In this document: positions 7,581-50,283 of the stretch, in pieces
Position numbering within the stretch: the stretch's first letter is position 1
Layout: each line of letters begins with the position of its first letter
NCBI GenBank assembly: GCA_027603945.1
Contig: JADIIU010000077.1
Coordinates: 1-64,000 of the forward strand
Source: Terramyces sp. JEL0728
Taxonomy: Eukaryota; Chytridiomycota; Chytridiomycetes; Rhizophydiales; Terramycetaceae
Reading direction: 5' to 3'
DNA: 64,000 nt
The notes under the pieces: generated by a model
Told to the model about the DNA's origin: nothing
Seen by the model: only the letters and a program-made list of their open reading frames with translations
Database searches by the model: none
Position numbers and translations under genes: made by a program

Positions 7581-7593
7581 TTAATTTTTGAAA

Positions 7594-8016
7594 ATGTCGA
7601 AAATATTCAAGAGACTACTGTCTGTGGAAATAATTCAGCCGGAAACAGTAGCGTTACGACTCAAGCAAAACAAGTTTGTAAGTACTTAACGTAGTTTCAA
7701 ATATCAGATTATCGATGTAAGGGAACCACACATGTACGACAAGCTACATGTAAAATCTGCGATTAATATTGAATCCAAACAGCTGCTGGGGATGGATAAG
7801 GATATGCTCTTGTCGAAATTGGATTCCGGTGCAGATCAAATCGCAGTGCACTGCCAGCTATCACTTATTCGCGGTCCGTCGTGTAGTTTACATTTGGCTA
7901 AACTGCTTCATGATAAACTGGAATTTAAGAATGTCAGGATAGGAGTGATCGAAGGGGGGTTCAAGAAATGGGAGAGGCAGTACGGGAAGGACAGCAACCT
8001 TTGCGAACCTGTATGA
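7594..8016 (+). CDS. rhodanese/Cdc25-like phosphatase-fold protein, 130 aa
   Basis: Exons 7594-7677 and 7708-8016. A single rhodanese domain of the Cdc25/Ibp1/arsenate-reductase (ACR2) subgroup: the strand motif FIIDVREPHMYDKLHVKSAINIE is followed by the active-site loop HCQLSLIRG, a CX5R arrangement with Cys and Arg both present. That loop suits dual-specificity phosphatase or arsenate-reductase chemistry rather than classical thiosulfate sulfurtransferase. Length (130 aa) matches fission-yeast Ibp1-type proteins. The 30-nt intron is longer than its neighbours because a nearer AG, 17 nt from the donor, would break the frame. Substrate is unknown. Confidence 0.75.
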
Positions 8017-24022: not shown

Positions 24023-25219
24023 TTATTGGTTAAAGTTTGGATGGAATGAGTTTCTATTTCTATTTGAGAAACCGGACACTTCGGATCCACCTGTTGACTC
24101 TGTTGGCGGCATGTATGGCATTCGCGGGTCTACTGGCGGCATATAAGACATGCGTGGATCAATTGGGGGCATGTAAGATGCTCTTGGATCAGCAGCTGGA
24201 GGCATATACGACATCCTATGAGCATAGGGATCGGTGGATGTTGGTGGAATATAAACACTTTGTGGGCCGGAAAAGCCTCCATATCCCATTTGAGCATCCA
24301 TGAAAGCATTTGAGTTTGGATCGTAAATATATCCACTTGGATGATAAGCTGGAGATTGATAAACGCTTGCCGTTGGGGGATAATATGGGGCTGGATAGGT
24401 TTCTGGAGTGTATGTTTCTTCTGGATAGGTTTCTGGAGTGTATGTTTGTTCTGGATAGGTTTCTGGAGTGTATGTTTGTTCTGGATAACTCTGGCCAGCA
24501 GGATTAGCATATGCTTCTTGATGAATCTGGTCCTCAAGATTAGGATAGCCGTCGTACATTTCCTTGGGTGTTTGCGCAATAGACCCTCTATTATTGATTT
24601 CTTCAATTGGCTCGATATTCACAGTGGTTTGAGGGACGGTTGCTTCGGATCTGGCTTTAGCTCCAAATGATGGAACAGCAATGACATTTGATGGATCGAC
24701 TTTTGGCTGTTTCCTAAGCAGTGACATTGGTTTAATTGAAAGTGCGGATGTATCGATTGATCTACCGGCATATTTGGAGTAAATTAAAGAAATTGCACCA
24801 AGGAATATTACAGCACCAATGACAATCAAGCCAATGGTTACCCCGCTTGAAATACCAGTTTCAGCTGAAGAGGTTGCAGCAGCAGTGGAAGTTGCAAAGC
24901 TAGTAGCCGCAACAGAAGTGACTGGATTGGTTGTTGTTGCAGGCTGGACTGTTGATGAAGTTGCGGTAGGTTTGCTTGCACTAGTTTTGACAGCAGCGGT
25001 AGTTTTTGCTGCCTCAGTAGGAATCACATTCAGTATACTGCTAAATACATTTGCTGATAAAGGCTGGAAACAGTTTGGTCCATTGCCATCAGTAGAATAA
25101 CAGCACCCTTGCGCCAAACAAGATTTCTGGTTTTTGGCGTTACAGGACACTTTATCTGCATCGCTCACGGAACATAACTGACCCAATACGGTGGTTAATA
25201 CCAGGAGGACTTTGTACAT
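24023..25219 (-). CDS. trefoil (P-type) domain single-pass membrane protein 1, 398 aa
   Basis: Signal peptide MYKVLLVLTTVLGQLC, then a trefoil-like six-cysteine domain (Cys16, 26, 34, 39, 40, 50; CLAQGCCY...PNCF). A Thr/Ser/Ala-rich, likely O-glycosylated stalk (~65-120), a transmembrane helix (VTIGLIVIGAVIFLGAISLI, ~125-145) and a long Pro/Tyr-rich cytoplasmic tail follow. The tail contains 10-residue repeats (TYTPETYPEQ) from a 30-bp DNA repeat and many YMPP and PxxPR motifs. Intronless. It is a paralog of the next gene. Trefoil domains bind carbohydrates or mucins in animals; here a receptor or adhesin role is inferred from architecture only. Confidence 0.8.
   Translation of the reverse strand: MYKVLLVLTTVLGQLCSVSDADKVSCNAKNQKSCLAQGCCYSTDGNGPNCFQPLSANVFSSILNVIPTEAAKTTAAVKTSASKPTATSSTVQPATTTNPVTSVAATSFATSTAAATSSAETGISSGVTIGLIVIGAVIFLGAISLIYSKYAGRSIDTSALSIKPMSLLRKQPKVDPSNVIAVPSFGAKARSEATVPQTTVNIEPIEEINNRGSIAQTPKEMYDGYPNLEDQIHQEAYANPAGQSYPEQTYTPETYPEQTYTPETYPEETYTPETYPAPYYPPTASVYQSPAYHPSGYIYDPNSNAFMDAQMGYGGFSGPQSVYIPPTSTDPYAHRMSYMPPAADPRASYMPPIDPRMSYMPPVDPRMPYMPPTESTGGSEVSGFSNRNRNSFHPNFNQ
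24391..24480. repeat. 3 x 30-bp coding tandem repeat
   Basis: Copies at 24391-24420, 24421-24450 and 24451-24480; the last two are identical and the first differs at one base. They lie in frame in the minus-strand trefoil gene and encode the 10-residue repeats of its cytoplasmic tail, so copy number may vary between strains without breaking the frame. Confidence 0.9.
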
Positions 25220-25248
25220 ATCTATTAGGAGTTTGATTGGTGCCAGAC

Positions 25249-25256
25249 GTTATATA
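25249..25256 (-). promoter_or_regulatory. TATA box of trefoil gene 1
   Basis: TATATAAC on the minus strand, about 30 bp upstream of the ATG at 25219. Confidence 0.5.
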
Positions 25257-25387
25257 TGCGCCGCTGAGTCGCCTCTATGAAGCCCTTGAAACCTTGAAAC
25301 GCCCTCACCGCGAAGGACTGGGAAGTGTAACACCTTGAAACATTGACCGTGCAACAGAAAGATGCAATTACAGTCACGTAAAAATGT

Positions 25388-26347
25388 TTATTGAGGATAA
25401 GGAGCAGAATACCCAGAAGGCGGAGGAGTGTTATTATAGTTTGGATGATAAGTCTGCGGTTCTACGTGTGACTGAGGATAGGCGTTATAGTTGGTTCCAA
25501 CAGCACTTCCAGCATACTGTTGGTTATAACCATTGTTGTAAAACCCAGTGGCATTTTGGTCATAGTAAGGTTCAGATTGGGGGTAGCCTGTATTTGACTG
25601 TTGATAGCCAGCATTAGATGCAGGATACGCTTGAGTTGGGGGATAATAGTCTGCAGGATAAGAGCCATCTGGATAGGCTGTTGCTGGATATTGAGCAGGT
25701 GCTTCTGGGGTTGGCGGTTGAGGGATGGCAACTGGGCGTTCGATTGTATATGCAGCATATTGAGGTGTAGGTTCAACAGCAGCAGCGCCAAAAGGACTAG
25801 CCTTTGGAACCAAAGAACCACCACCGGCTCCACTATTTGCGTTTGGTGAGAGACTTAATTTGCTATCGCCAGTCTTTCTGGCTTTTGAAATATTATGATA
25901 CATTAAAGTTCCTACGCCAAATGCAACAAAGAAGGCCGCAATACCAATACCTACCCATACACCAGATGAAATACTGCTTGGATTAGACGTTGAAGATGCG
26001 GGAGTGCTGGTTGCAGAAGTGCTGGTGGTTGGAGTAGATGATGGGTCTAAGGTTGTAGTTGCATCGGGTGTCGCTTTTGTCTTTGGTGGTTTTGTGGTGG
26101 TTTGAGGAGCATCAGTTGTAGTTTGTGGGGAATCAAGGGTTGTGGTTACGTCTGGAGCTGCAGGGTTGAAACATGACGGAGTAAGACTGAATAATCCTTG
26201 GTCTTCCCAACAACAGCCTTTCTTTTCACAGCTACTTTGCGAAGTGAATTTATTTCCGCATTCAGACTTTTGTGAATCACTGACGGCGCACTGGTCGCTG
26301 CTCTGACCAAACACTGATACTACGAGGAGTAGCAAGAATCTCTTCAT
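25388..26347 (-). CDS. trefoil (P-type) domain single-pass membrane protein 2, 319 aa
   Basis: Start taken at ATG 26345-26347, directly before the signal peptide (MKRFLLLLVVSVFGQSS). A canonical trefoil domain follows: CAVSDSQKSECG, then SSCEKKGCCW and PSCFNP, with all six cysteines. Next come a Thr/Pro/Ser stalk (~55-120), a transmembrane helix (GVWVGIGIAAFFVAFGVGTL, ~128-147) and a ~170-residue Pro/Tyr/Asn/Gln-rich cytosolic tail (YPQSEPYYDQ, PPPSGYSAP). It has the same architecture and orientation as the gene just downstream, so the two form a tandem duplication. The tails are low complexity but differ in sequence. Function inferred as cell-surface recognition; no enzyme domain. Confidence 0.82.
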   Translation of the reverse strand: MKRFLLLLVVSVFGQSSDQCAVSDSQKSECGNKFTSQSSCEKKGCCWEDQGLFSLTPSCFNPAAPDVTTTLDSPQTTTDAPQTTTKPPKTKATPDATTTLDPSSTPTTSTSATSTPASSTSNPSSISSGVWVGIGIAAFFVAFGVGTLMYHNISKARKTGDSKLSLSPNANSGAGGGSLVPKASPFGAAAVEPTPQYAAYTIERPVAIPQPPTPEAPAQYPATAYPDGSYPADYYPPTQAYPASNAGYQQSNTGYPQSEPYYDQNATGFYNNGYNQQYAGSAVGTNYNAYPQSHVEPQTYHPNYNNTPPPSGYSAPYPQ

Positions 26348-30932: not shown

Positions 30933-31073
30933 TGGAAATGGTCGGTAACTCACCTTTAAACTTATTTTCCGTTTGAATTGCAGTTGATTGTTTCATTTAT
31001 GCCCCCATTTTCTGGTTCACAAGTGGGCAAAAAAGTCGGCAAAAAGGTATCACAAAAGAAAAGCAGAAGAGAC

Positions 31074-32705
31074 ATGCAAATAGACTCGTTCCCGCAAGAG
31101 ATTCATCATGGAATTATAGAATGCCTGGATGGAGATGATCTTCTCCATTTATCCTTATCCAATCGTTACTTTTACGAATTTCTATCTTCATTTCGATTAC
31201 TAGCGGCCTGTATAAAGAGGGAATACCACGAGAGTTACATGTGGCCAGTAGCGATACTCTCCAAGGAAACAATCCGCACTGGTTGCAGCATTACTGATTG
31301 TCTGCAGCAGTTGAAACTGGAGCAATTCAATTTTACTGATATCTTCATCAACACGGAAATTGGGTCAAAATTGGCAGATGTAATACCTCAATCTAAAAGT
31401 TATGATGTTGCGGTTATCAATGGAATCAAGAAGAGTCAATTTGATACAATTTTAGGTCATAGAAACCTGAAGACTATTGCATTTGATGCAGGAAATCCAA
31501 TGATACCTCTGTTTATACCAATACTAGAGAATATCAGGAATTTAGCAGCACTAAGATTGTCGGGATTGGATGAATCAAATTTCATTCAGTTGGTAAAGCA
31601 TCTGCCAGATTCAAACATCTGCAAACTAGCAATAATGGAGGTGGATAGCAAATTCAACACTAGATGCCATAGCTCGCTTTTTTCCGTGCTGCATTTGACG
31701 AAATTAACGAAATTGTCAATGTGTGAATGTCGTTTGAACGACGAATCGGCTGTTAAACTTGCCAAAGCTCTTCCAAATACCAAACTAAATACCTTGGAAT
31801 TGAATTGCAACCAAATCACTGACGTTGGTGTAATTGTGATATCAAAAGTATTGCGATACACACAACTTTGTACTCTCGAACTTTTGCTAAATGGAATTAC
31901 TATCACTGGGTTTACAGCACTTGCCGCTTCATTCCCGCATTCAAAATTGACTGCTTTCGATGTAAGCAAGAATCCAGTAAAGAAATGCGAAATCGAATAT
32001 CACGTTTTAACAAACCTTGCAAATTCAAACATTGAATATGTCTGGATTACCCAAAATGAAGAAAGATTTTATGTTCTTCTGATTGAAAATATTAGCAAAT
32101 CAAATCTCAAAAGTATTACTTTAAGGATACCATACAAATTTTTGAAAGGGTTTTTGATTGCTGCCCAGTCATCAAAACTAGAGGAAATGAATATTCAAGG
32201 ATACGGAGGTTTGTTTAGCGATGAATCGGCGGTGGCATTGGCAAAGCATATTGACAAATTGCCTGTAAAAAGAATCGTCTTTAATGGAAGCGTTATCGGA
32301 CCACATGGACTGGCCTCAATTTTGCGCAATCTTACAAAGACTTCAAAGCTGAAACATTTGGAATTATCTTCAAGCCTAGTAAAAATAGACAAATTCAGAA
32401 ATATTGGGGAACTGTTGACAGATACCAGTTTGAGATCGTTGAAAATTACAAATGCTGAATGGAACGATAGCACCTTGGAATCTCTTGTCCAGGGTGTGAA
32501 TGGATCTCTGCTGCGACACTTGGATTTATCGTACAACAATTTCACGCCTTCTGCCATCTTGGAGTTTGTATCAAGAGTAAGAAAATCCAAACTATTCAAG
32601 CTGGAATTCAAGAATATTATTCGTGATAACCAGTTGCGCAAAAGGACAATGCTTCAAATTTTAGATCTGGTCGACGGAAACTATAACTTGAATGTGTTGA
32701 TTTAA
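31074..32705 (+). CDS. F-box/LRR protein, array member 1, 543 aa
   Basis: Intronless. An N-terminal F-box-like segment (SFPQEIHHGIIECLDGDDLL then LSNRYFYEFL) is followed by LRRs of the ribonuclease-inhibitor type spread over the rest (for example TKLSMCECRLNDESAVKLAK and NTLELNCNQITDVGVIVIS). Such proteins usually supply substrate specificity to S-phase SCF ubiquitin ligases. The start is set at 31074 because every paralog begins within a few residues of the box; an in-frame ATG at 30999 would add 25 Lys-rich residues. The C-terminus (ILDLVDGNYNLNVLI) is shared with relics nearby. Targets unknown. Confidence 0.8.
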   Translation: MQIDSFPQEIHHGIIECLDGDDLLHLSLSNRYFYEFLSSFRLLAACIKREYHESYMWPVAILSKETIRTGCSITDCLQQLKLEQFNFTDIFINTEIGSKLADVIPQSKSYDVAVINGIKKSQFDTILGHRNLKTIAFDAGNPMIPLFIPILENIRNLAALRLSGLDESNFIQLVKHLPDSNICKLAIMEVDSKFNTRCHSSLFSVLHLTKLTKLSMCECRLNDESAVKLAKALPNTKLNTLELNCNQITDVGVIVISKVLRYTQLCTLELLLNGITITGFTALAASFPHSKLTAFDVSKNPVKKCEIEYHVLTNLANSNIEYVWITQNEERFYVLLIENISKSNLKSITLRIPYKFLKGFLIAAQSSKLEEMNIQGYGGLFSDESAVALAKHIDKLPVKRIVFNGSVIGPHGLASILRNLTKTSKLKHLELSSSLVKIDKFRNIGELLTDTSLRSLKITNAEWNDSTLESLVQGVNGSLLRHLDLSYNNFTPSAILEFVSRVRKSKLFKLEFKNIIRDNQLRKRTMLQILDLVDGNYNLNVLI

Positions 32706-32817
32706 TAAAAGATTGCATTTCCTGCCAGTGCCGTTGAAATGATGGTTAAGCTTATATGTGGTGTCCAGTGAGTCATTAGCCGGAACAGGACTAGAACTTT
32801 TTTGGCTAAAAATCAGA

Positions 32818-34431
32818 ATGCCGCGAATACCTGTAGAGCTACTGCATGAAGTAGTGGAATATATGGATACTGGATCACTACTGAACCTCTCACTTACAAG
32901 CAAATTTTATTTTAGATATCTGGCAATCTTTGGACGGATAGCGAATGCAATCAACCCATCACATTTAAATCAAATATGGCCGTCACTGGAGCTATCTTCA
33001 AAGACACTAAAACAAAGTTATTTATCTAATCTGGAAAAAATGGTTGAAATCATCTCTAATTGCCCATTTAAATTTCCTCAGATTTCCATTACCAGTTTGA
33101 TTTTTAAAGCTTTGGACAAGCATTTGCCTCCATCGCATGAATTGAAACTCATTATTGGAAATGATTCAAAGGCGGAAGAATTAGGCACTGCTCATTCACA
33201 AAACAACTTGACAATTGTCGAATTCACAGCAGTAAATTTACAAAATTTCAATTTCATGCTGGGTTGCCAAAACATACGATCATTGTCATTTACCGCTTGC
33301 TTCACATTCAACTTTGATCTTCTGGTAGACAAACTAATCAACAGCTCAGTCGAAGAATTAAACTTTGAACGGAATTTTGATTTCAACAGCGATGGAATCG
33401 ACAAGGTCCTTTCTGTACTTGGAGAAACTAAATTAAAACGACTGTCAATGAAAAACTTTTTTATTGGATCAGAATCTATTCATGTGCTCACGCAATCTTT
33501 ACCATCTTCGAAACTAGAGTATTTGGATTTGGGAGAAAATTCAATTACAGACGATGATACAGTTGAAATTTCCAGAATATTGCCGTTAACAGAATTGAAG
33601 GTGCTGAAACTGGACAGGAATAATATTAGTAAAGTAGGATATGAAGCGCTTACCAAAGGACTCGTTAATTCTAAAATTACAATCTTGCATATTTATGATA
33701 ACGAAATTGAGACTTTTGATTTGGAATATTTCATGGCGGAGAACTTGGCAGATACCCAAATTGAAGAAGTTACTGTTTCCACGTTTGATGAACGATTGTA
33801 TCATTCATTGACAGAAAACATCAGCAGGTCCAATGTAAAGACGTTGAATTTGTCCATTCCAGCTTGTTTTTTGCAGCCGGTTTTGAAGTCTGCTCGTTAT
33901 TCAACTCTCCAAACATTGGTAATCAGCGGAAGAGATATCGAATTTGGAGACGCATCTGTTACTATATTATCGCAATATTTAAAGGATTTACCTATAAAAG
34001 AACTTGCACTCAAAACCTGCTACGTTGGCAGCAGTGGAATACGGGCATTGTTCAAGAATCTAGAGCAAAGCAAGGTAGAGCGTCTAGTAACTTCTGCCTT
34101 ACCGGAGAGTGTGGACGAATTTGAAAATATAGGTGAATATTTAGCAAATTGCAATTTAAGACATTTAGGAATCTCCTCTAGCACATGGACGGATGGAATA
34201 CTGGAAAAAATAGCTGCAGGAGTCAACAAGTCAAAACTGCAAAGTATAGATTTATCAAGCAATTCGTTTATTACATATGACGGCATTCTACAGTTTGTTT
34301 CCGATACCAAAGAATCGAATTTGGTTTCCATAGATCTTACGTTTATTGTTGCCGACTACAATTTACGAAAGAAACTTGGCAAGGAGATCCATTCTATTCG
34401 AGAAGACGGAAGACTGCGCGTTTATCTTTAA
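32818..34431 (+). CDS. F-box/LRR protein, array member 2, 537 aa
   Basis: Intronless second copy, 112 bp after member 1. The F-box reads RIPVELLHEVVEYMDTGSLL with LTSKFYFRYL, and LRRs include KLEYLDLGENSITDDD and ELKVLKLDRNNISKVG. A conserved C-terminal segment (NLRKKLGKEIHSIREDGR) aligns with the end of member 1. Sequence divergence between members is high except in the box, the repeats and the tail, so the duplication is old or diversifying. Role inferred as for member 1. Confidence 0.8.
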   Translation: MPRIPVELLHEVVEYMDTGSLLNLSLTSKFYFRYLAIFGRIANAINPSHLNQIWPSLELSSKTLKQSYLSNLEKMVEIISNCPFKFPQISITSLIFKALDKHLPPSHELKLIIGNDSKAEELGTAHSQNNLTIVEFTAVNLQNFNFMLGCQNIRSLSFTACFTFNFDLLVDKLINSSVEELNFERNFDFNSDGIDKVLSVLGETKLKRLSMKNFFIGSESIHVLTQSLPSSKLEYLDLGENSITDDDTVEISRILPLTELKVLKLDRNNISKVGYEALTKGLVNSKITILHIYDNEIETFDLEYFMAENLADTQIEEVTVSTFDERLYHSLTENISRSNVKTLNLSIPACFLQPVLKSARYSTLQTLVISGRDIEFGDASVTILSQYLKDLPIKELALKTCYVGSSGIRALFKNLEQSKVERLVTSALPESVDEFENIGEYLANCNLRHLGISSSTWTDGILEKIAAGVNKSKLQSIDLSSNSFITYDGILQFVSDTKESNLVSIDLTFIVADYNLRKKLGKEIHSIREDGRLRVYL

Positions 34432-34470
34432 CTGCTACCAAATAAACATGTGTCTGTGTGATTATCCCCA

Positions 34471-34557
34471 GAGGGAATTATTCGTTTCCTAGCCAGAGTC
34501 AAGGGTCCAGACTTTTCCTATATAGTTTCAAAGATTTCAAATGAACACAGTGCCTGA
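34471..34557 (+). pseudogene. short relic resembling the C-terminal part of an F-box/LRR gene
   Basis: The frame EGIIRFLARVKGPDFSYIVS is open for 28 codons and aligns by eye with the C-terminal GILQFVSDTKESNLVSIDL and AILEFVSRVRKSKLFKLEF segments of members 2 and 1. No flanking coding sequence survives. Short, so modest confidence. Confidence 0.4.
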
Positions 34558-34691
34558 AAGCAGCGAGACAGCTGTTGAAAGGATCCGATTTGGCTGTTAT
34601 CATGGAATTATTAGCATGCTAATACAAATCCTTGCAATTATTCACAAATTCCATTTTAACTTTTTCAATCTCCAAAACTAACACCTTTCAA

Positions 34692-36266
34692 ATGCTCACC
34701 ACACTACCCAGAGAAATTCATTATCTAATAATTGACTATCTGCAAGGAATAGACATCCTGTACCTATCGCTAGCCAACATCTACTTTTACAATTTCCTAA
34801 ATCCGTTCCGAATTTTAGCTTTAAAAACATCAAATGTTCACTTGATTTGGCCGACACTTGCGCTTGGTCAACGAGTTGTGAAAAAAGAAACGGCAGGATT
34901 CTTAAAATCAATCACGGATTGGGAATTTCACTTTAACGAAATTGTTATTGATGCGACACAGTTAAGTATAGTGAAATCCTACTTGCCGCCAACTAGATTG
35001 CTTCATGTTAAAATAGACAGCAATACAACGGTAGAAGAGTTGGATATCATCAGAGACTGCAATATTACACATCTATCTATTTTGAATCGAATTAGTGATA
35101 AGAGAGTGGTTCAGGAGTTGCTTGAATGCAGATGGAAGAATTTAAAGGTACTGGAGTTTTGTGATTATGGATTAATTGACTGGAAAAGGTTCAGTGAACG
35201 ATTCAGGGCATTTTCAGTGGAAAGGTTAACTGTGCGTACGACATTCAATGTGGAAACGATCAGTTACTTTTCTATTGCGAGTTGCAAGACATTTATTTCC
35301 AATTTGAATCTTTCAGGATGCCAACTAAATGACCAGATAGTATCAATATTGTCTGATTACCTTCCCGAATTCAAGGTTCTAGATCGCTTGTACATGGAAG
35401 TCAATGAAATATCAAATGATGGAGCTGTGTCTATTGCAAAAAGGTTACCTGGCAGTTCAGTTACCTGTCTGTTTCTCCGAAACAACAAAATTGGCTTTAA
35501 AGGTCTAGAGGCTATTTCAAAATCACTGCCCAAATCTAAACTCAAAGTTCTTGGGATCGACAACAATTCATTCGCCAACGACGATTACTATATCTTATTT
35601 GATCATATCCCAAACTCACCGCTGGAGCAATGTGCATTGTATATAAGCGAAGACCGGACATTAAAGTCGATTGCAGAGAACATTAGTTTGTCAAATATCA
35701 AAACAATCAAGTTTAATCTTGACAGCGTATATTTGGAACAGTTTTTAGTATCTGCAACAAAATCAAAGTTAACTTCACTGATTTTGTATGGAAAATACAA
35801 TGCAAATAGCGAATGTATCCTTTCCAAGTTTATCAATCAGCTGCCAGTTCAGCATTTATACCTGTCGGAGATCAAAATGTCCAAAGCTTCAATTGAAAAG
35901 ATTTTCAGCAGATTAGCTTTTACTTCCTCCATCACACATTTGTCGCTTTTGGGGTGGATGGATGATGATGGATTCAAAGCTATGGTGAATCACTTGCCGC
36001 ATACCAATATAAGAGGGTTGTTTGTCCAAAGCACAATAACCGACCATTCACTCTTATCACTGGCAAAGATCGTATCTCAAACCCAGTTGCGAGAACTGCA
36101 CATAATGTTTGGTAATATCACTGGCGAAGCAATCAAAAAGTTTGTTGAACAAGTGAAAAGCTCTCTGTTGCGGAAAGTTGATTTTCGTGGAATTTCCGTT
36201 GAAAAGAGAGTCGCAAAAGAGATTAAACGCATTGGCCCAGACTGGATGCAAATAAATCTTGAATAA
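34692..36266 (+). CDS. F-box/LRR protein, array member 3, 524 aa
   Basis: Intronless. The F-box is TLPREIHYLIIDYLQGIDIL with LANIYFYNFL. LRRs include LNLSGCQLNDQIVSILSDYL, DRLYMEVNEISNDGAVSIAK and CLFLRNNKIGFKGLEAISK. The C-terminus (VEKRVAKEIKRIGPDW) aligns with the other members. The start is the ATG at 34692, matching the position of the box in the paralogs. Likely an SCF substrate adaptor; targets unknown. Confidence 0.8.
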   Translation: MLTTLPREIHYLIIDYLQGIDILYLSLANIYFYNFLNPFRILALKTSNVHLIWPTLALGQRVVKKETAGFLKSITDWEFHFNEIVIDATQLSIVKSYLPPTRLLHVKIDSNTTVEELDIIRDCNITHLSILNRISDKRVVQELLECRWKNLKVLEFCDYGLIDWKRFSERFRAFSVERLTVRTTFNVETISYFSIASCKTFISNLNLSGCQLNDQIVSILSDYLPEFKVLDRLYMEVNEISNDGAVSIAKRLPGSSVTCLFLRNNKIGFKGLEAISKSLPKSKLKVLGIDNNSFANDDYYILFDHIPNSPLEQCALYISEDRTLKSIAENISLSNIKTIKFNLDSVYLEQFLVSATKSKLTSLILYGKYNANSECILSKFINQLPVQHLYLSEIKMSKASIEKIFSRLAFTSSITHLSLLGWMDDDGFKAMVNHLPHTNIRGLFVQSTITDHSLLSLAKIVSQTQLRELHIMFGNITGEAIKKFVEQVKSSLLRKVDFRGISVEKRVAKEIKRIGPDWMQINLE

Positions 36267-37685: not shown

Positions 37686-40600
37686 TTACTGAATTTCCCC
37701 ATATTTACTCTTTGCAATTTGTCTGATGGCAGCAGCGTTTGAAGACCCAGAAGATTCCACTAGTTTGGTGAATTCAGAGTCCTCATCTTGCAACAGGATG
37801 TGAGGAGCATCATATTCCGACAACCTCCCTTGATCAAGAACTAGAACCCGATCAAAATCTGCAATAGTGTTTAGTCTATGTGCGATACTAATGATCGTGG
37901 TATCTCGAAGCGACTTTCTGAGGACACTCTGGAGCAATTTGTCTGCTTCTCCGTCAATCGAAGAACTGGCCTCGTCTAGAATCAACAGCTTAGGTTTCTT
38001 CACCAGTGCTCTCGCTAGACACAGCAATTGTCCTTGGCCAGCAGATAGATTATTTCCCTTCCCGGTTAATTCGTGGTCCAGCTTATCGGGAAGTTGGGAT
38101 ACAAATTCCTTCATTCCAACCATGTCTAACGCTCCCCACAATTCTTCGTCCCCAAACGATGAATCGAGACAAAGATTGTATCTGATTGTCCCGGGGAATA
38201 TATTTGCTTCTTGTGCAATGATATGTAGGTTTCTTCGCAGTGCATCCAACCCCATTTCTGCAATGTCTGCATTAACCAAAATTACCTCTTTCATCAATAA
38301 TGATACTGCCGCTCTTGGGTTCGAGAATTCTAAAGAAAGCTAGGGCAAGAGTCGATTTCCCTGACCCTGTTCTCCCAACAATCCCCACCTTTTCTCTGGC
38401 TTTGATCGAAATCGATAGATTTTTGATTACATCGGTGTTTAGTTTGCTGTGGTATGCCATAGTCAAGTTTTTGATATCTACCGTCCCATTTGAAGGCCAG
38501 GTCTTTTCCTGAGGATCCTTTGGCAATTCTCTTGGCCCTTCTTGCGGAGTTTCTTTCATGTACTCGACAACTCTTTCAAACGAATTCATCTATGTCAAAC
38601 ACTCGGTTACATATGATTTCCAAAATGCCATGTATAGAATGAGATCCATCAGCAGTAAAGTACAGCTTTCTGATTGAGTTAGCGCCAAACCAACTAAAGC
38701 GCTGAAATAAGTTGAGCGCTCATTCTTTAGCAGTGCAGCGGATATGATCCCAATTGATATAACAGAATTTATCATGGCTACTCTGAACTTGTACCACAAT
38801 TGGTTGTATTGAATCATCGCAACCCATCTGCTGAATTTACCAAAGAAATTGTAGAATCGCTGTTCAAACAAGCTGGATCCAGCATCAAAGAAAGTTATAG
38901 TTCCAAGACCGGTAAATGTCTCTGCTTTAATTGCATTCCCCGATGCTTGATAGAGCGCAAAGTATCTTCGAAAGTCTAACGTTGCTTTGTCATATATGTC
39001 TCGAATGTGCCAAATAATCGAGTAAGCAAACAACAATAAAACTATATCAAACGAGAGATACCTACTAGTATTGGACTAGCGAAACACACTAGTATGTTTT
39101 TGCCTACAAACGAGAGACCTATAACAATAGAGTTGTACATGGATATAAATAACTCATGGTCTAACGCAAACAGATCAAGTGTAAATCGATTCAAGATTCT
39201 ACCAGAGGGATTTTCGTCAAAAAAGTATTGCGGAGCGTTGAAAATAGATTTGAGACTCTGAGCATAAAAATACTTGTAATTATCTAGGCCGCCGAAATAC
39301 CATCCGATATTTAATAGATCTAAATTAATTGAAAAATACAGAAAACAATCAATCGTGCTGCTGTACTGATAAGTAGCAGTTCTATATAGTAAGTGTTTCT
39401 GGAAGAATCATTTGCCCAGGCTGTGATTACAATTAACCCAATAAACTCAACGGCAAAGTTGAGCACATATCCAATCGCAATCATTGGGAACCACAGAGGG
39501 CTCTTGATACCTCTGAATATCATCTTGTACAGGGAAAATGGAATGTTATCCTAATGTAAGTTTTAGATGCACATTTTGTTTCTTTTCGGGCTGGACAAAC
39601 TCTGGTATTTTTGTAATTTCTTTGTTTAATGGTCTGCTCAATTCTTCAAGTTCATTTACATACGCAATATCATCTTGTTCTGACTCGACAGAAAAGTTTG
39701 CCATCATTCCTTTGAATACTCCGTTTTCAGTATCCATCAGTTCTTCAAACGTTCCATTTTCAATCACTTTTCCTTGATCCAGTACCAAGATCTGGTCCAT
39801 TTGCTGCATATACTGCAGTTGGTGTGTGGCTAGAAGGACAGTCTTTCCAGCAAGTTCTCTTTTGATTGCTCTCTCGAACACTTGCTTTCCAACATACGCA
39901 TCTAGGGCTGCGAGAGGATCATCCAAGAGATAGATATCAGCGTTTGCATACAAACAACGAGCAAGTGCTACTCGCGCTTTTTGGCCGCCAGACAAGTTGA
40001 TCCCACTCTCACCGAGCTTTGAATGAATGCCGTCTTCAAGCAAATTCAAGTCTTTGACTAAACCACACGCCTTTACAATTTTTTCCAGATTTCCGTAATC
40101 CAAATCTTTTCCAAAAGTAATATTCGTTTTGATATCGTCTGAAATAATCCACGGTTCTTGGGTATAGTATGCAATGTCCCCGTTAATGATCACCTATTCT
40201 TAGTTTGACTTACTTTTCCAATTGGCTTCAAACCAGACGTCAACCCTGCAAACAAAGTGCTCTTTCCTGCACCAACAGCGCCAACTACTCCTACCAAACT
40301 GCCTTTCTTGATGGTCAGCATCAAGTCCTTTAATTCAAAGGTGTCTGTATTTTCCTTTAGAGTAAATTCTTCCTGTTTCTTTTTTGTAATGTGTCGTTTT
40401 TGTTCAAGTTGGTAATCGTGCAATTTCTTGATGTACTTGGAGTCGTACCATTTCCAATCGACCTTTTTCAGCTGAATCGCAACATCCGCGTCTTTGCTTG
40501 TTTGACTGAATGACTGATGTTCCTCTGCCCATAGGAAATTAGACATTAACTGATAACCTTCATAAGTTCCAAGGAATTGTGAAGAAATATCCTTCAGCGT

Positions 40601-41760
40601 CTGAATCTGTGCTGCAATCCCATCGAGGTAAAGAAAGGTCGGGAATACAACAGTTGGAGTCAATTCATTGCCTAATAAAGTATAGATAACAAAGGTAAAA
40701 CAACAGAGAACCGTGCTAAGGGCTTGGATAAGGGATAATTTGATTCTGGTAATCAAATAAGTTTTAGTACGAATAACTGCGTGGTCGTTAATATTTCTCA
40801 TTACTCTCTTTGAAAAATATTGTTCGATGTTTGAGAATTTAATATTCTTGATATCTGCAATTAAATATATCTTACTCTTGAAACATTCGCCCAATAAGTT
40901 TGCCCTTTTATCTGCCAGAATGTTCACGCCGGTATCCACACTTACTCCTTTCACTTGCAACCAGCCAATCGGAATCAGGAGAATAAAGAACAGAATGATT
41001 GGGTAAATTGCTGCAACACCAATTAAATTCTCCAGAAAGATCAAATTCAGCATGATTAGCAATATCGGGTATAGGGAATTTTTCACAATGGTTAATCCCG
41101 CGTATACTCTATCAACATCGCGGTCATAGAGGTTCATAATATTCCCGGCTTCGTACTTCTGAAATTAGAACTGCTTACCAGTCTACTGAATGGACTTAAC
41201 TTTAATGTTTTCTTGTATATCAAGGCACACATGGCTGCCCAGTATCTGTTTTCCAACTTTTGGTCAAGTGAAGCCGTGATGGACTCTAAAACCGGTTTGA
41301 TGAGCGAAATCACAATCAAAACGGCAAGTGAGTATCCAACATTGTTCAGCCATAGCGGGTCAGTGCTAGATGGATCCAGATAACTTAGAAACTCGATTAA
41401 ATCTCACATACCTGTGCAATTAAAAGAGGTTTAACGGCACCCATAACCAAGGTGACTAGCTGGAGCGTTGTCATCAGCAAACTGCGATTAATCTATATTT
41501 ACATTTGGTGTTTGAACATATGGAACAAGTACACATACAATTTCGGCGGTTCTGCACTCCCCCGCTGGTACCTTTCAAGATGGTCCATTAATGGCTGCAG
41601 AAATACTTGGACTTCTTTTATATTTTCAGGAAACTCTATATCCAGCTGTATCAGTGAAATTTACATCATCCTTGAGTGTTCCAGCTCCCACTCTTTTCAT
41701 TATCGGAGTCATCCATGCATTGGTGATGAGACTGAGGAAATCTGTGGGGATTTTCTTCAT
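37686..41760 (-). CDS. ABCC (MRP)-type ABC transporter, 1290 aa, 11 exons
   Basis: Exons from 5': 41760-41665, 41645-41503, 41481-41412, 41391-41179, 41158-40214, 40193-39573, 39550-39340, 39319-39062, 39041-38611, 38589-38286, 38266-37686; ten introns of 19-22 nt, all frame-consistent. Order TMD1-NBD1-TMD2-NBD2. NBD1: Walker A GAVGAGKST, signature LSGGQKARVALAR, Walker B LLDDPLAALD. NBD2: GRTGSGKST, LSAGQGQLLCLAR, LILDEASSSID with Glu present; NBD1 has Asp at that position, the usual ABCC asymmetry. There is no TMD0, so it is a short MRP4-like exporter of organic anions or conjugates. The start has an in-frame stop just upstream; a missed 5' exon cannot be excluded. Confidence 0.9.
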
Positions 41761-42173: not shown

Positions 42174-43805
42174 TTAAAAGTAAAATGGATTTACACCTGA
42201 AATTACAGTAGTCTCGAGCACCTTTGCATCCATCTGATACCCAGATTTCATTCCAACCGCGTACGCATAGTTGAAATTTATAATCGCAACCGTTTCAGAA
42301 ACAACTGTTAATTCCACCAGTTTATAAGGGTAGATTTCTTGAAGACTTGATATTGGATCAGTGTAGAATACTTGGTACGTGTCGTCAAATTGATCAATTC
42401 GGAATACTTCGTCGTTTCCTAAAATGTTGACTTTAAGCGTCATTTCAGGGGTAATCTCCCCAACGTGAACAAGATCTTTGTTGTATGGGAGCAGCAGATT
42501 TGTCGGTCCAGCGGCAACATTGGTATATGGTGTTCTAGTGGTATTAAACAGCCCAAAAATAGAGCCTTGGAAAACTTTTATGGTAACTGTTTCGTCGATT
42601 CCAAACGAATATTGCTCATTCAGCCGCTCACTCTTTCTTCCGTTCAGCTGTACATATTTGTCTCTGCCAACACCTTCCGATATGACCATACCCAGCAAAT
42701 TTGCTCTTGCTGTAATAGATTCATTTGGGAAATAGATACAATCCGCATTAAACCAATATTCTCCTTTCTCCAGTGTATTCAGATCTACACGGAAGGATAG
42801 GGCCAGCAAACTACAGGGATCACTATAGATACCAACTAATGTTGCTTTCCACTGCATGAATTCATCAAATGCCTGTTTTTTCGCAACGTGTATTTTGTCT
42901 GATATCTCCTTTGTAGCTGAAATAAAAGTGGTACCATCAAAAGCTTGTTGTCGAGCATATCTGGACATTAAGTTGTGATTTGAGGCAGTAATTTCGTTAT
43001 CTACATGATTAGCATTGTATTCTCCAGGCGGCCGTGCATCCAGCTCAATATGCAAACGCTTGCTTGATGGGTTTGGGTAATAATCCAATTTTCTTTTGAA
43101 TGGGGTTGGAGGTTTGTTGTTTCTACTATCAAGATTTGATATTTTGGAGTAATATGTGCTGGGTGAGACTTTCCAATTGGCATCGCAGCTCCATCTGTTT
43201 TCACGGATTTCATTAAACGCACTTGAATCACTTGAAGTGTACGAAAATACGCACGAATCAATAGAAATAGTATCGTCAAGGTAATCACCATTTCTACAGC
43301 GAATGCTCTGACTTGCACCTTCGCCTGTAAATTGCAAGGGTGGAATTTCAAAGTATGTATCGTCATCGCTGTGCGAGTCAGAAAACGTCCGGGATTTGGT
43401 ATCTTTTACAACATCCAGCGCAGTACTGGGTAAATTTTGACGAGGTGGATATGTGTGTGTATCAAAGTGTGAAGAATTCAGGCGTAGGAATGCACTTTCA
43501 TCGCTGGATGTAACCGAATCTGTTTGGGAATTAATCGAGAATGTATCCTGAATAAAATAGCCTTGGGGTGTAGTTTGTATTGACAGAGATGGATCTCTAT
43601 CATTTTCTGATCCGTTGACTGAGGATCCTTCTACTAGCCTTGGAACGTAACTGTTTAAAGTTATCTCCATTGCATTCGATTCACTGGCCACCGTTGTGTT
43701 GTCGGAGCTGTGATCTGCGCTCAGTGTGCCGCCATCCAAAATAAAGTCCATAAGCTGGGTTTGCAGAAAAGTGGGAATTAAATCGTTTTCTGTTTTAAGC
43801 CACAT
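42174..43805 (-). CDS. unknown NLS-bearing protein, module copy A, 543 aa
   Basis: No known domain recognised. Intronless; start at the first ATG (43805), with 43751 (MDFILDGG) an alternative that better aligns with the paralog's start. The first ~250 residues are Ser/Asp-rich and disordered, with two motifs shared with the copy at 44933: GYFIQDTF and DYLDDTISIDSC. A basic cluster follows (FKRKLDYYPNPSSKRLH), resembling a bipartite nuclear signal. A ~230-residue globular C-terminal domain follows (EKGEYWFNADCIYFPNES, PYTNVAAGPTNLLLPYN, DQFDDTYQVFYTDPIS, ending SGVNPFYF). It is transcribed away from a tiny secreted-peptide gene 265 bp distant. Confidence 0.75.
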   Translation of the reverse strand: MWLKTENDLIPTFLQTQLMDFILDGGTLSADHSSDNTTVASESNAMEITLNSYVPRLVEGSSVNGSENDRDPSLSIQTTPQGYFIQDTFSINSQTDSVTSSDESAFLRLNSSHFDTHTYPPRQNLPSTALDVVKDTKSRTFSDSHSDDDTYFEIPPLQFTGEGASQSIRCRNGDYLDDTISIDSCVFSYTSSDSSAFNEIRENRWSCDANWKVSPSTYYSKISNLDSRNNKPPTPFKRKLDYYPNPSSKRLHIELDARPPGEYNANHVDNEITASNHNLMSRYARQQAFDGTTFISATKEISDKIHVAKKQAFDEFMQWKATLVGIYSDPCSLLALSFRVDLNTLEKGEYWFNADCIYFPNESITARANLLGMVISEGVGRDKYVQLNGRKSERLNEQYSFGIDETVTIKVFQGSIFGLFNTTRTPYTNVAAGPTNLLLPYNKDLVHVGEITPEMTLKVNILGNDEVFRIDQFDDTYQVFYTDPISSLQEIYPYKLVELTVVSETVAIINFNYAYAVGMKSGYQMDAKVLETTVISGVNPFYF

Positions 43806-44070
43806 CAGGTCGAGGTGGTACAAAACGCAACTTGAAGAAAGCAACGCATGATTGCATCCGTGTAGGTCCGGGTACCTTTTGGTTTCTGGAAAAACAAAAG
43901 AAAAAGGATTTACCAGTGAATGATATCAAATGAAAGTGCTTCTGTTTCCGGTCCGGCGTTCATTGCGAATTTGATTTGCACTTTTACCTGCAGTTGCTGT
44001 TTTCTTCACTTGCAATGTGGCACCTTGGCAACGGGTTAAATGGGATTCAAAGACAGTTTTTTTCTCCAAT

Positions 44071-44289
44071 ATGAACATTATTAAACTGGTTGGGTTAATC
44101 GCAGCAACCGCATTCGCACTAGCAGTTCCAAAGTCAGATAAAGTTACCCCTGTTAAATTGCCTGGTGGTGGAGCGACCGTTGGCGTTGGATATACTGATA
44201 GTAAACTGCTGTCCGATGATGGACAGACTGGCGATTTGACTCCTGTTGAATGGCCAGGTGGTGGTGCAACAGTCGGAGTAGGTAAATAA
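44071..44289 (+). CDS. secreted peptide precursor with internal repeat, module copy A, 72 aa
   Basis: Signal peptide MNIIKLVGLIAATAFALA, then two copies of a Gly-rich unit: DKVTPVKLPGGGATVGVG and DLTPVEWPGGGATVGVG, separated by a 16-residue spacer. The protein ends GK. Repeated units behind a signal peptide resemble precursors of secreted signalling peptides or pheromones, though no Kex2 site is evident. Start at the ATG 44071; the 30 bp upstream are pyrimidine-rich. It is a paralog of the gene at 44530-44658. Function unknown. Confidence 0.65.
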   Translation: MNIIKLVGLIAATAFALAVPKSDKVTPVKLPGGGATVGVGYTDSKLLSDDGQTGDLTPVEWPGGGATVGVGK

Positions 44290-44529
44290 GATAGAGACGA
44301 TACCATCATTCATGTTAAATAAAATTGTGTACTGGATATACTTTAGAGATTTCCTTATAATAGCAATAGTTGAAGCATGGTTTCCATTTCACAGTCGGAT
44401 GTAGTTGGGGCATCATCCCGAGAACGAGATGTGTAAGCAACACTAGGCGTATGAAAGTAAAAGCAAGTAAATTGAAATACACAGTATATTATATATAAAA
44501 GTCCAACTGATTTGTACAAGTAATGGTTC

Positions 44530-44658
44530 CTATTTACCAGGAGTTCCTTCTCCTCCTCCAATACCATTCACTTTGGTTGGGCCAACTTTATCTCTCGATT
44601 GTAAAGGTGCAGCTGATGCGAGCACTACTAGTAGCCCTACAATGCTGAAAACATTCAT
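44530..44658 (-). CDS. secreted peptide precursor, module copy B, 42 aa
   Basis: Signal peptide MNVFSIVGLLVVLASAA, then RDKVGPTKVNGIGGGEGTPGK to the stop. The residues around the processing site align with copy A (MN...VGL...SA and DKVxPxK...GGG...GK), with a single peptide unit instead of two. It is tail-to-tail with copy A (240 bp between stops) and head-to-head with the unknown gene at 44933. Its small size keeps confidence moderate, but position and similarity to copy A support it. Confidence 0.55.
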   Translation of the reverse strand: MNVFSIVGLLVVLASAAPLQSRDKVGPTKVNGIGGGEGTPGK

Positions 44659-44932
44659 TTGATTGAAAGAAGTGCGAACCCGTGAGATTTCCTTTGAAGA
44701 ATCTGCGCTCAGCCACACATGAGAATGGAAATTGCACGGGACAGCAAAGTATAGACCAAAATCGTAATAAAAACTGATTCTAAATAAAATATTCAATGTC
44801 CTTCACTGACGGAACATTGCCGCTGCATTTGATAACAGCTTGACGCACCCTGACCAATACTCTATTGACCAAATGTGTGGCTGAATTGGAAAAAGTGTCC
44901 AATAATTCTTGCCATTTCGCTGCAGAGATAAA

Positions 44933-46357
44933 ATGGACTTTACTGAAATATGCACCTCGGCAGCAGGTTTGCCAATGTTGGCGGTTGATTTGGACCACAA
45001 CTCTGAAAACAAAGCAGCCAAACCTGATCGAAAAATAAATGCAATAGTTATACGGAACACCTTTGTTCCAAGTCTAGAAGAATCAGCAGCCAACTGTTTG
45101 GAATATGATTGCGAAAACAACAGTCAGCATGCCGAATCAGTTTCCACTTCAGAAACAACTCTGTCAATACCAATTACAACAGAATATTTTATGCAGGATA
45201 CATCCAATTACTCAGATGAAGACTGTCCTTCTCAAAATTTAACTGTTGGAAAAGACGAATACCTCGACGATACAATCTCAATAGCTTCTTGTACATTCTC
45301 CACCACTTCCAGTGATTCAGAGGCATATCATGAACTCTGCGAAATCAAATATAGACCCGACCACCCTGTTCCTAAAGTTAGAATAATATCACATCCGACA
45401 CCAACCCGGAGCAAACGAAAAATCAAAGATACTGTATTGGTTAGTTCAAAACGGCATAATTATGAAACGGATTCGGATGATGGAGTGACAATTGAACCAA
45501 TTGATTTGAAGAACAATATCCCCTTCCCAATGGTGCAAAGATTCCTTGACAATGCAAATAGATTTGAAATCCCAGTGGATGATTCACCTTGCGCTACACA
45601 GCAAACTAATTCCAATGTGTCGTCTCTGATTGCTACAGAGAAAATCAAAGCCAAAATGGATTTCCTCAAATGGAAAGGCACCGTGGTAGATTTTTACAGT
45701 GCTCCATTCACATTGCTATCCCTAAATGTTGTTGTAAATCTTTCCACTTTGGACAAAGGAGAATATTGGTTCAGTGCTGACCATATTTATTTCCCTAACG
45801 AAGCAGAGAAACTTGATGTAGATAAGTCACAATTAATAGGTTTAATTTTTTCAGAAGGTATAGATAGAGACAAGTACTTAGTGATGAATGGAAAAGGAAG
45901 GGAGCTTTTGCGGGACAATTATTCGTATATTGTGAACGAAACAGTTAGTTTGAGGGTATTCAACGGGAAAATGTTTGGCATATATGATATTGCGAAATCG
46001 CCTTACACGAATGTTGCTTCTGGTCCTGAAGATCTGATACTTCCGTACAGCGAGGATTTCATTTTCATTGGTGAAATCACAAATGAAATGACTTTTAAAG
46101 TCAAGATCTTGGGGGATGATCATGAATTTCCAATCGACCACTTTGGCGACACATATCAAGTTTTCTTTGTGGACCAGATCTCCAAAAGACAGAAATGCTT
46201 TCCTTACAAAGCCGTCCATCTCAATGTAATTACTGAAACAGTTGCGCTTATTAATTTCAACTATTCATTTGCTATTGGGTTGAAAGACGGGTCGCGAATG
46301 GACGCTAAAATCCTGCAAAAAGATATCATTGCTGGTATTAATCCAGTCTACTTTTAA
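44933..46357 (+). CDS. unknown NLS-bearing protein, module copy B, 474 aa
   Basis: Paralog of 42174-43805, opposite strand, with roughly half of the C-terminal ~230 residues identical by eye. Start at ATG 44933 (MDFTEICTSAAG). The acidic/Ser-rich N-terminal half retains EYFMQDTS and EYLDDTISIASC. The basic cluster is TRSKRKIKDTVLVSSKRH. The conserved domain includes DKGEYWFSADHIYFPNEA, SPYTNVASGPEDLILPYS, DHFGDTYQVFFVDQIS and the end GINPVYF. No enzyme or DNA-binding family is recognised; nuclear location and a regulatory role are inferences from the basic cluster and acidic N-terminus. Confidence 0.75.
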   Translation: MDFTEICTSAAGLPMLAVDLDHNSENKAAKPDRKINAIVIRNTFVPSLEESAANCLEYDCENNSQHAESVSTSETTLSIPITTEYFMQDTSNYSDEDCPSQNLTVGKDEYLDDTISIASCTFSTTSSDSEAYHELCEIKYRPDHPVPKVRIISHPTPTRSKRKIKDTVLVSSKRHNYETDSDDGVTIEPIDLKNNIPFPMVQRFLDNANRFEIPVDDSPCATQQTNSNVSSLIATEKIKAKMDFLKWKGTVVDFYSAPFTLLSLNVVVNLSTLDKGEYWFSADHIYFPNEAEKLDVDKSQLIGLIFSEGIDRDKYLVMNGKGRELLRDNYSYIVNETVSLRVFNGKMFGIYDIAKSPYTNVASGPEDLILPYSEDFIFIGEITNEMTFKVKILGDDHEFPIDHFGDTYQVFFVDQISKRQKCFPYKAVHLNVITETVALINFNYSFAIGLKDGSRMDAKILQKDIIAGINPVYF

Positions 46358-48576: not shown

Positions 48577-50283
48577 TTATTGATTTTGATTGTCGGTACT
48601 CGCCGCTTTCAAGTATTGGTAATCAACTCGACAGTTCAGCAAACCATTTCCAACAGTATCATTCAGCTTTCTCTTCAAACAATGAAAACTAACCGCGTTT
48701 CTCCAGTGAGCTGGATTGACACACAAAGTATGCACCTGTGAATTTTTGATTGCACAAACAAAGTACAAAAGGCCTTCAACTGTAACTAGCTGATTCTCCA
48801 ACGCAATACTGATTCGTTTCAATGTTGAATTCAGTATACCTGGAATGAGGTTCAAGAGTGCGATATCCATCATCCGAGATCGATTGAACGACAGCGCAAC
48901 CAAATTTGTATTGGGCAAACTAGTGGAAATATCGCGGCATAAATCTGCAGGCAAGTGAATTCCATTCAAGGTCAATTCTTTCAAAGATGAAGATTTAGTC
49001 AAAGCTCGAAATATTGCCAATACACTCTCCTCGTCGATTTTCGAATCGGACAAGGAAAGTTTTTGTACTGGTATACTGCTGATGTATCTTGACAGTATCA
49101 TTGCGCTAAAATTAGCTCCACTTCCGACAATTTCCATTTCTTTGATATTTGAGGTGTTCAGTGAGCGTAATATCTTTTCTGAATAAACAAAACAGGAATC
49201 GTATTTGATGGATGAAATGCTTGAAGTTGGCAGATTCTTTGCCAATGCCATTTCACTTTTCTCGCCTATTCCTTTGATTAACAACCGTTGGATCTTTGTC
49301 AAGCTGATTTTTTCGTACAGCAAATACATGTCATCAGGCTGAAAGTTGTTGTGCGTAAAGTCGATTTGTTGAATATTGCTCTTTGGAAGGGCTGCAGCAA
49401 ATAATCTTAGTGATTTAGCAGTCAAATTGTTGAAGGAAAGATTCAGGTCTTTTAAATTGGATTGAGCGAGCACTTTGGCAAGTGCAGTTGCTGCGTTGTC
49501 TGAAATCCCATTCCCCTGCAAATTCAATGTCTCAACCTGACAGTACGGAAGGATTATTGCAAGTTGATTGACAGCCAAGTCATGGGCCATTCCATTCAAA
49601 CACAACCGCTCAATATTGGTTTGTGGTAAAATTGCAAATAGCATTGACCAATCGTTGGTATTCGGGTAGTCCTTTAATACCAGTTCAGTAATTCTAGTAT
49701 TTGGCAGCCCTTTGCAAAATAGATTCCAGTTCAAATTAACGCTTTCTAGTTCCAATGCTTTTAGATTCTTCATATTTTGCATGGATTGAATGTTTTCGTC
49801 ATTGATGGATACGCCAGTGAAAGATAAGCGTGTTACTTTGCTGAAGGAGAATAAGGTGGAGTTTTCCCTCGTGGTCTCTCTGTAATTTGGAACGTAATGA
49901 TTCATTCGTTCTGCATGAATTGGATCTTCAATAACGAGGAGGTTCTTGGCTGGAGGTAAGAAGCTGTGCACTTTGGTATACAGTGGAAAGTCAATGGTGA
50001 TGCAATGGTAGACAAACCTAAAATTATGCAAATGCTTTAGTTTTTGAATTTGGAAATAATAATCCTTTTTTAGCACTTGATAGGATAAATCCAGAGTTGG
50101 CCAGATGAGAGTTTGTTTCCCATCAACCATGCACGACATTAGTATCCGGAATGTTTTCAGGAAAGCATAAAAGTACTTGTTGCTAATTGAGAGAGTGAGG
50201 ATATCGTCGCCAGAGAGGTAGTCTACAAACCCGAATTGTAGCTCCAAAGGTAGCGATTGCAATTGCATTGTAAACCAGGCCAT
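48577..50283 (-). CDS. F-box/LRR protein, dispersed family member, 568 aa
   Basis: Intronless; ATG at 50281-50283, with a second ATG five codons in (MQLQSLPLELQF) that matches the paralogs better. The F-box (SLPLELQFGFVDYLSGDDIL then ISNKYFYAFL) is clearly the same family as the array at 31-36 kb. LRRs follow, e.g. KDLNLSFNNLTAKSLRLFA and VETLNLQGNGISDNAATALA. It sits ~12 kb from the array and on the opposite strand. Inferred SCF substrate adaptor. Confidence 0.82.
   Translation of the reverse strand: MAWFTMQLQSLPLELQFGFVDYLSGDDILTLSISNKYFYAFLKTFRILMSCMVDGKQTLIWPTLDLSYQVLKKDYYFQIQKLKHLHNFRFVYHCITIDFPLYTKVHSFLPPAKNLLVIEDPIHAERMNHYVPNYRETTRENSTLFSFSKVTRLSFTGVSINDENIQSMQNMKNLKALELESVNLNWNLFCKGLPNTRITELVLKDYPNTNDWSMLFAILPQTNIERLCLNGMAHDLAVNQLAIILPYCQVETLNLQGNGISDNAATALAKVLAQSNLKDLNLSFNNLTAKSLRLFAAALPKSNIQQIDFTHNNFQPDDMYLLYEKISLTKIQRLLIKGIGEKSEMALAKNLPTSSISSIKYDSCFVYSEKILRSLNTSNIKEMEIVGSGANFSAMILSRYISSIPVQKLSLSDSKIDEESVLAIFRALTKSSSLKELTLNGIHLPADLCRDISTSLPNTNLVALSFNRSRMMDIALLNLIPGILNSTLKRISIALENQLVTVEGLLYFVCAIKNSQVHTLCVNPAHWRNAVSFHCLKRKLNDTVGNGLLNCRVDYQYLKAASTDNQNQ

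Follow-up and report, generated by a model that had tools for sequence, protein, structure and literature searches.

What is the mirror-image block at positions 42,174 to 46,357 of contig C77 (JADIIU010000077.1) of Terramyces sp. JEL0728, a chytrid of the Rhizophydiales, in which two large genes, A and B, enclose two tiny genes, pA and pB? The window, that is, the whole stretch of DNA analyzed, comprises 64,000 of the 64,023 bases of this contig, and whole-genome searches covered 15.0 Mb in 231 contigs. Our answer is drawn from sequence comparison. The open reading frames (ORFs) and their paralogy, the recurrence of the arrangement on two further contigs (C142 and C65), the DUF1684 ancestry of the large proteins, a clade of ATP-binding cassette (ABC) transporters and a synonymously diverging repeat in pA together point to a chytrid gene cassette whose core was duplicated here as a mirror image. 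This cassette looks undescribed and of a peptide-signalling or peptide-weapon type. Judged mostly from titles among the matches listed, no description of it was found in the literature on chytrid peptide pheromones and mating, amidation in fungi, Terramyces or chytrid signalling peptides; a search for chytrid gene clusters of a small secreted precursor and an ABC transporter, again mostly at the level of titles, yielded no account of it either.

An inverted duplication of a divergent gene pair

A preliminary description of this DNA had proposed the order large (minus strand), small (plus), small (minus), large (plus), and the four ORFs A, pA, pB and B were found accordingly (Table 1). The large genes are paralogs, as had been claimed: they are 43% identical over 395 amino acids (aa; E 2e-104) and 53% identical in their last 239 aa. 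Both features that had been noted in them are present, namely a DYLDDTISI motif (DYLDDTISI / EYLDDTISI in the A/B alignment) and a basic cluster resembling a nuclear localization signal (NLS), KRK-x9-KR, in A and B. Because the proportion of synonymous differences (pS) between the C-terminal domains was 0.73 and that of nonsynonymous differences (pN) only 0.26, both genes have been maintained as proteins. The small genes can likewise be regarded as paralogs, on a weak alignment: they share 12 of 30 residues, mostly in the signal sequence (E 1e-5 as a single comparison), and pA was the sole other match when the whole genome was searched with pB (E 0.07). The start codons are 266 bases apart in the A/pA pair and 275 in the pB/B pair; the former value rises to 320 if A starts at codon 19, where the database protein P0001 begins. 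Duplication of the whole divergent unit in inverted orientation is supported.

The unit recurs beside an ABCC-like transporter gene

The family of large genes has nine members in this genome: A, B, one each on C142, C65 and C170, and four on C149 (C149a to C149d). The same head-to-head pairing was retained at two other loci. On C142, the large gene (L022 5167-6306, minus) is divergent to a signal-peptide-like ORF of 44 aa (6789-6923, plus), and on C65 the large gene (L023 14-777, minus) is divergent to a peptide ORF of 46 aa (1163-1303, plus). The unit had been called a two-gene module; this was too narrow, because an ABC transporter gene of one clade adjoins it at all three loci. In the window and on C142 this gene lies co-directionally behind the large gene, giving the order ABC, large gene, peptide; on C65 it comes after the peptide gene. 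Overall, a peptide accompanies four of the nine large genes, at three of five loci, and these are the same three loci that hold the ABC clade.

The closest paralogs of the window transporter are the other two cassette copies (57% and 39% identity), followed by a paralog with 31%. In a tree, the three were split at 100/100 from five other paralogs, which had been drawn from 29 matched places, several per gene. PF00005 (ABC_tran) was detected in pieces of the gene at all three loci, including two pieces of the window gene. The nearest solved sequences were ABCC4 and ABCC1 (ABCC4 at E 2.5e-7 for the C77 piece, mainly over the nucleotide-binding part). The likeness to ABCC transporters consists of these matches to genes known here from separate exon pieces, whereas the cassette copies differ in forming a clade of their own among the paralogs compared. 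Near-identical tandem pieces of the transporter gene follow the copy on C65 (L042 124-987 and 2862-3431), which reflects either recent duplication in tandem or faulty assembly.

No ABC match was found on C149, and the only one on C170 is about 15 kb distant. No signal-peptide-like ORF was present within 1.2 kb upstream of C149a, C149c and C149d or in the 585 bases available for C170; C149b has two weak ones, both within other large ORFs.

The large proteins carry a diverged DUF1684 domain

The large proteins had been described as unknown. Their C-terminal domain of about 230 aa is real, but the family is not without relatives, because this domain descends from DUF1684. The proposed search with hidden Markov models gave no DUF1684 match in Pfam (PF07920 matched none of eight family members, even at E 10); the ancestry was revealed by profile comparison. 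For this ancestry, hhalign gave 96.9%. Profile scores were 71.6 against fungal and 43.2 against bacterial DUF1684, whereas 40 shuffles each reached at most 22.4 and 20.8, and the match was collinear over 213 columns. In addition, the genome contains a DUF1684 paralog, on C98, that links the two groups; a C149 domain matches it at E 5.9e-7. By these comparisons, the domain is a very diverged DUF1684 relative. The C98 protein (C98:246-515) lies above the Pfam cut-off, and a further protein (C50:42009-42635) is intermediate between it and the large family.

The likeness to DUF1684 proteins (solved sequences 2LNU and 2LOK/4DLH/4FJ4) therefore lies in a collinear profile match scoring far above shuffles, whereas the family differs in falling below Pfam detection, in the loss of NPPC-x7-C and in having the domain fused to a long N-terminal part; the bacterial proteins compared have about 245-330 aa. 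All 54 sequences of the bacterial set carry DFNRAYNPPC-x7-C, but they were retrieved using this motif up to its first Cys. In eight of eight family members, and likewise in the C98, P0003, P0004 and C50 proteins, the last 70 residues lack its Cx7C part. These findings suggest a eukaryotic re-use of DUF1684, a domain little mentioned in the literature searched.

At the N-terminus, A, B and the C65 copy share KRK, nine variable residues and KR or KK(R), a bipartite NLS pattern; the C65 cluster reads KRK-x9-KKR, and the pattern is conserved although the linker differs. Single basic clusters occur in C149a, C149c, C170, C142 and C50, and none was found by this rule in C149b, C149d and C98. A nuclear location of A and B is predicted from these motifs. 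For C149b (L019 6148-7735), the listed start may be too late: a possible upstream exon (ORF 7133-7735, minus) has an N-terminus resembling that of C149c (EGWVKT..TKY..).

In the tree of large genes without C65, A and B stood apart from the rest at 100/100. When 77 residues of C65 were included, A+B received 87.5/90 and A+B+C65 98/99, and therefore the split from C65 seems to have preceded the mirror duplication.

Evidence for the peptide genes

Signal peptides were called with a home-made rule whose original form missed the C142 peptide and was then relaxed by one residue; all four peptides pass the relaxed rule, and their secretion is predicted from such motifs. The best single argument that the peptides are real is the internal repeat of pA, in which 16 codons occur twice with 13 identical residues. 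Here, pS was 0.66 and pN 0.10 (Fisher P 2e-4, a test flattered by repeat borders that were set after inspection), and the GGGATVGVG part contains seven synonymous changes and no amino-acid change. The repeat has changed mostly synonymously, as in a peptide precursor. The composition of the peptides is stronger evidence than their position: in an ORF census of 168.6 kb, pB, pA and the C142 peptide ranked first to third in glycine content after residue 18 among 51 signal-peptide-like ORFs of 40-110 aa, and the C65 peptide ranked seventh. AATAAA follows soon after the stop codons of pA and the C65 and C142 peptides, and not after that of pB. Pfam returned no family for pA and pB at E <= 5, including the yeast alpha-mating factor families PF04648 and PF05436.

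Kex2-processed repeat proteins (KEPs) include fungal alpha-pheromones and ustiloxin-type precursors, according to the part of PMC7329392 available to us. The peptides resemble KEPs in their signal-peptide-like start and, in pA, in a repeated core under selection. They differ in that one peptide of the four has a repeat, in two copies and with no dibasic site between them.

A promoter motif had been a candidate proof of the peptide genes and was dropped. GGGATTYRAA lies 11-29 bases upstream of the ATG in pA, C65 and C142. Its score as a 10-mer was equalled by 2 of 60 shuffles for these three sequences and by 9 of 60 with pB added; for word lengths of 8, 12 and 16, 55, 20 and 17 of 60 shuffles equalled the score. 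The pattern GGGATTYRAAN{8,38}ATGAA occurs genome-wide at 21 places, three of them by construction. Inspection by eye revealed no signal-peptide-like ORF at the other 18, and three borderline places failed the signal-peptide rule. The longer motif has four places, three by construction and the fourth inside a coding ORF. Because no new peptide gene was found by it, the motif was not used as proof.

C-terminal amidation was also considered, as pA and pB end in G-K and the C65 peptide in G-RK, and was left unused. Four matches to Cu2_monoox_C, the C-domain of copper type II monooxygenases, were found in the genome (C28:117402-119742, C51:10164-10601 and C63:42035-42463). The match at C28:119296, the one scanned with Pfam, has a DOMON domain in front of it, weak and below the Pfam cut-off; this protein therefore looks dopamine-hydroxylase-like and less like a PAM. 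PAM is missing throughout fungi, as stated in the portion of PMC6529398 available to us.

A possible peptide signal or peptide weapon

What could such a cassette do? The reading that we prefer, tentatively and at somewhat less than an even chance, is that a secreted peptide, an ABCC-like transporter and a nuclear-type, DUF1684-derived partner are inherited together as one cassette in which the peptide acts as a signal. Its core would consist of a short prepropeptide gene, encoding a signal peptide and one or two Gly-rich core peptides, and of the divergent gene that combines the DUF1684-derived C-terminal domain with the NLS-like N-terminus, with the ABCC-like transporter of one clade beside this unit. 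The peptide would be secreted, processed and act as an extracellular signal; the large protein would be nuclear and would control or answer the peptide programme via the shared promoter; the transporter would serve the release or clearance of the product; and copies would diverge into matched peptide/partner pairs. In this form, the original idea that a secreted peptide is co-regulated with a nuclear partner can be kept, enlarged by the transporter and narrowed to those family members that have a peptide.

Several observations weigh against this interpretation. Five of the nine family members (four on C149, one on C170) have no convincing peptide, so that what the preliminary description had named as a refutation, the large family without adjacent peptide genes in most genomes, is seen in part within this one. 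The mature peptides are hardly alike: one of six pairs, pB and C142, was clearly above shuffles (equalled by 1 of 500), the similarity of pA and pB was equalled by 45 of 500, and that of each remaining pair by between 83 and 261. The Kex2-type dibasic site (KR, RR or KK) is missing between the pA repeats. On C65, the contig end truncates the large gene, whose frame also changes within it; this gene may be broken or contain an intron. The two trees also conflict: among the large genes, C142 groups with C170 (90/76) and apart from A, B and C65, unlike in the ABC tree. Either C149 and C170 have lost an ancestral cassette, or an exchange of genes took place. Furthermore, an ABC exporter would be superfluous for a peptide that carries a signal sequence.

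The best-surviving rival is a weapon, with antimicrobial peptides or peptides like the ribosomally synthesized and post-translationally modified ones, a transporter for export or self-protection, and the large protein as pathway regulator or immunity factor. Three loci at which a transporter gene adjoins the peptide gene, as well as short, Gly-rich, fast-diverging mature parts, would suit this, and fungal secreted repeat precursors include toxins as well as pheromones (PMC7329392, in the part available). However, among the cassette ORFs read in these few kb there was no modifying enzyme, and the start of the large protein is NLS-like, not secretory. We regard a weapon as unlikely, though a serious candidate, and a signal is favoured over it. 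The signal reading can be extended, with considerable doubt, to a self-contained chytrid peptide-communication cassette outside the known fungal pheromone systems; every copy would supply a peptide of its own together with a dedicated transporter and a nuclear partner derived from repurposed DUF1684, and the copies would diversify by duplication, in this block as a mirror image, into matched pairs, perhaps for self-recognition or mating. For tests of peptide signalling or peptide weapons in a zoosporic fungus, the cassette is a compact and direct target.

An improbable alternative is a thiol or stress module, in which the DUF1684-derived protein and the ABCC-like pump act in redox or detoxification, while the peptides would be minor neighbours or there by accident. 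Thiol conjugates are often transported by ABCC pumps. The archaeal DUF1684 protein HVO_1043 was put in a thiol-relay group from its Cx7C motif (PMC9426492, in the part available to us). Precisely this motif is the one missing from the family and from the fungal C98, P0003 and P0004 proteins in the C-terminal 70 residues, and each of the three loci with the ABC gene has a peptide gene as well.

It is very improbable that the divergent promoters contain the small ORFs merely by chance. A divergent signal-peptide-like ORF lies beside 10 of 50 ORFs of at least 250 aa, including A, B and the C142 large gene, and beside 7 of the 47 others; because of this background, which also counts against a signalling cassette, the divergent arrangement alone is weak evidence. 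The glycine ranking, the pA repeat, the pB-C142 similarity and the AATAAA positions, pB excepted, speak against chance. Equally hard to credit is the current database model, in which pA is the first exon of a secreted B and no separate peptide exists: P0002 (HDV01_007094; window 44071-46357) contains B and joins pA to it across a 682-base GT...AG intron (manual reading), but we think this model wrong because pA has its own stop and AATAAA and each peptide on C142 and C65 is a separate ORF divergent to its large gene; moreover, the intron would span pB, and the own ATG of B gives MDF, as does the database start of A. By this fusion, the model would hide a peptide gene.

Features of the window

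Table 1. Positions of the block, its parts and the adjoining transporter gene in the window
Feature	Position	Strand	Remarks
ABCC-like transporter gene	37686..41760	-	several exons; co-directional behind A
Large gene A	42174..43805	-	543 aa; N-terminus with NLS-like KRK-x9-KR; C-terminal domain DUF1684-derived
Divergent promoter region, A/pA	43806..44070	.	
Promoter motif GCAACG-N8-GGGATTCAAA	44028..44051	+	loose form common to C65 and C142 peptide promoters; pB without it; weak evidence
Peptide gene pA	44071..44289	+	72 aa; signal-peptide-like start; G-K end
pA repeat 1, VTPVKLPGGGATVGVG	44143..44190	+	
pA repeat 2, LTPVEWPGGGATVGVG	44236..44283	+	
AATAAA	44318..44323	+	29 bases past pA stop
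Peptide gene pB	44530..44658	-	42 aa; signal-peptide-like start; G-K end
Divergent promoter region, pB/B	44659..44932	.	
Large gene B	44933..46357	+	474 aa; A paralog

Elsewhere in the window, three similar-looking leucine-rich-repeat proteins lie in a row at 30999-36266 (plus) and another at 48577-50283 (minus), the latter being the only one of them included in the Pfam check for such repeats; a similar-looking protein lies near a C149 large gene (L020 51-1493, plus). Rhodopsin-type G protein-coupled receptors (PF00001) gave 35 matches genome-wide, seven of them in tandem at C69:57423-65046. At window positions 24023-26347 (minus), two adjacent proteins look paralogous by eye, each with a short Cys-rich N-terminus, a membrane span and a Pro/Tyr-rich tail.

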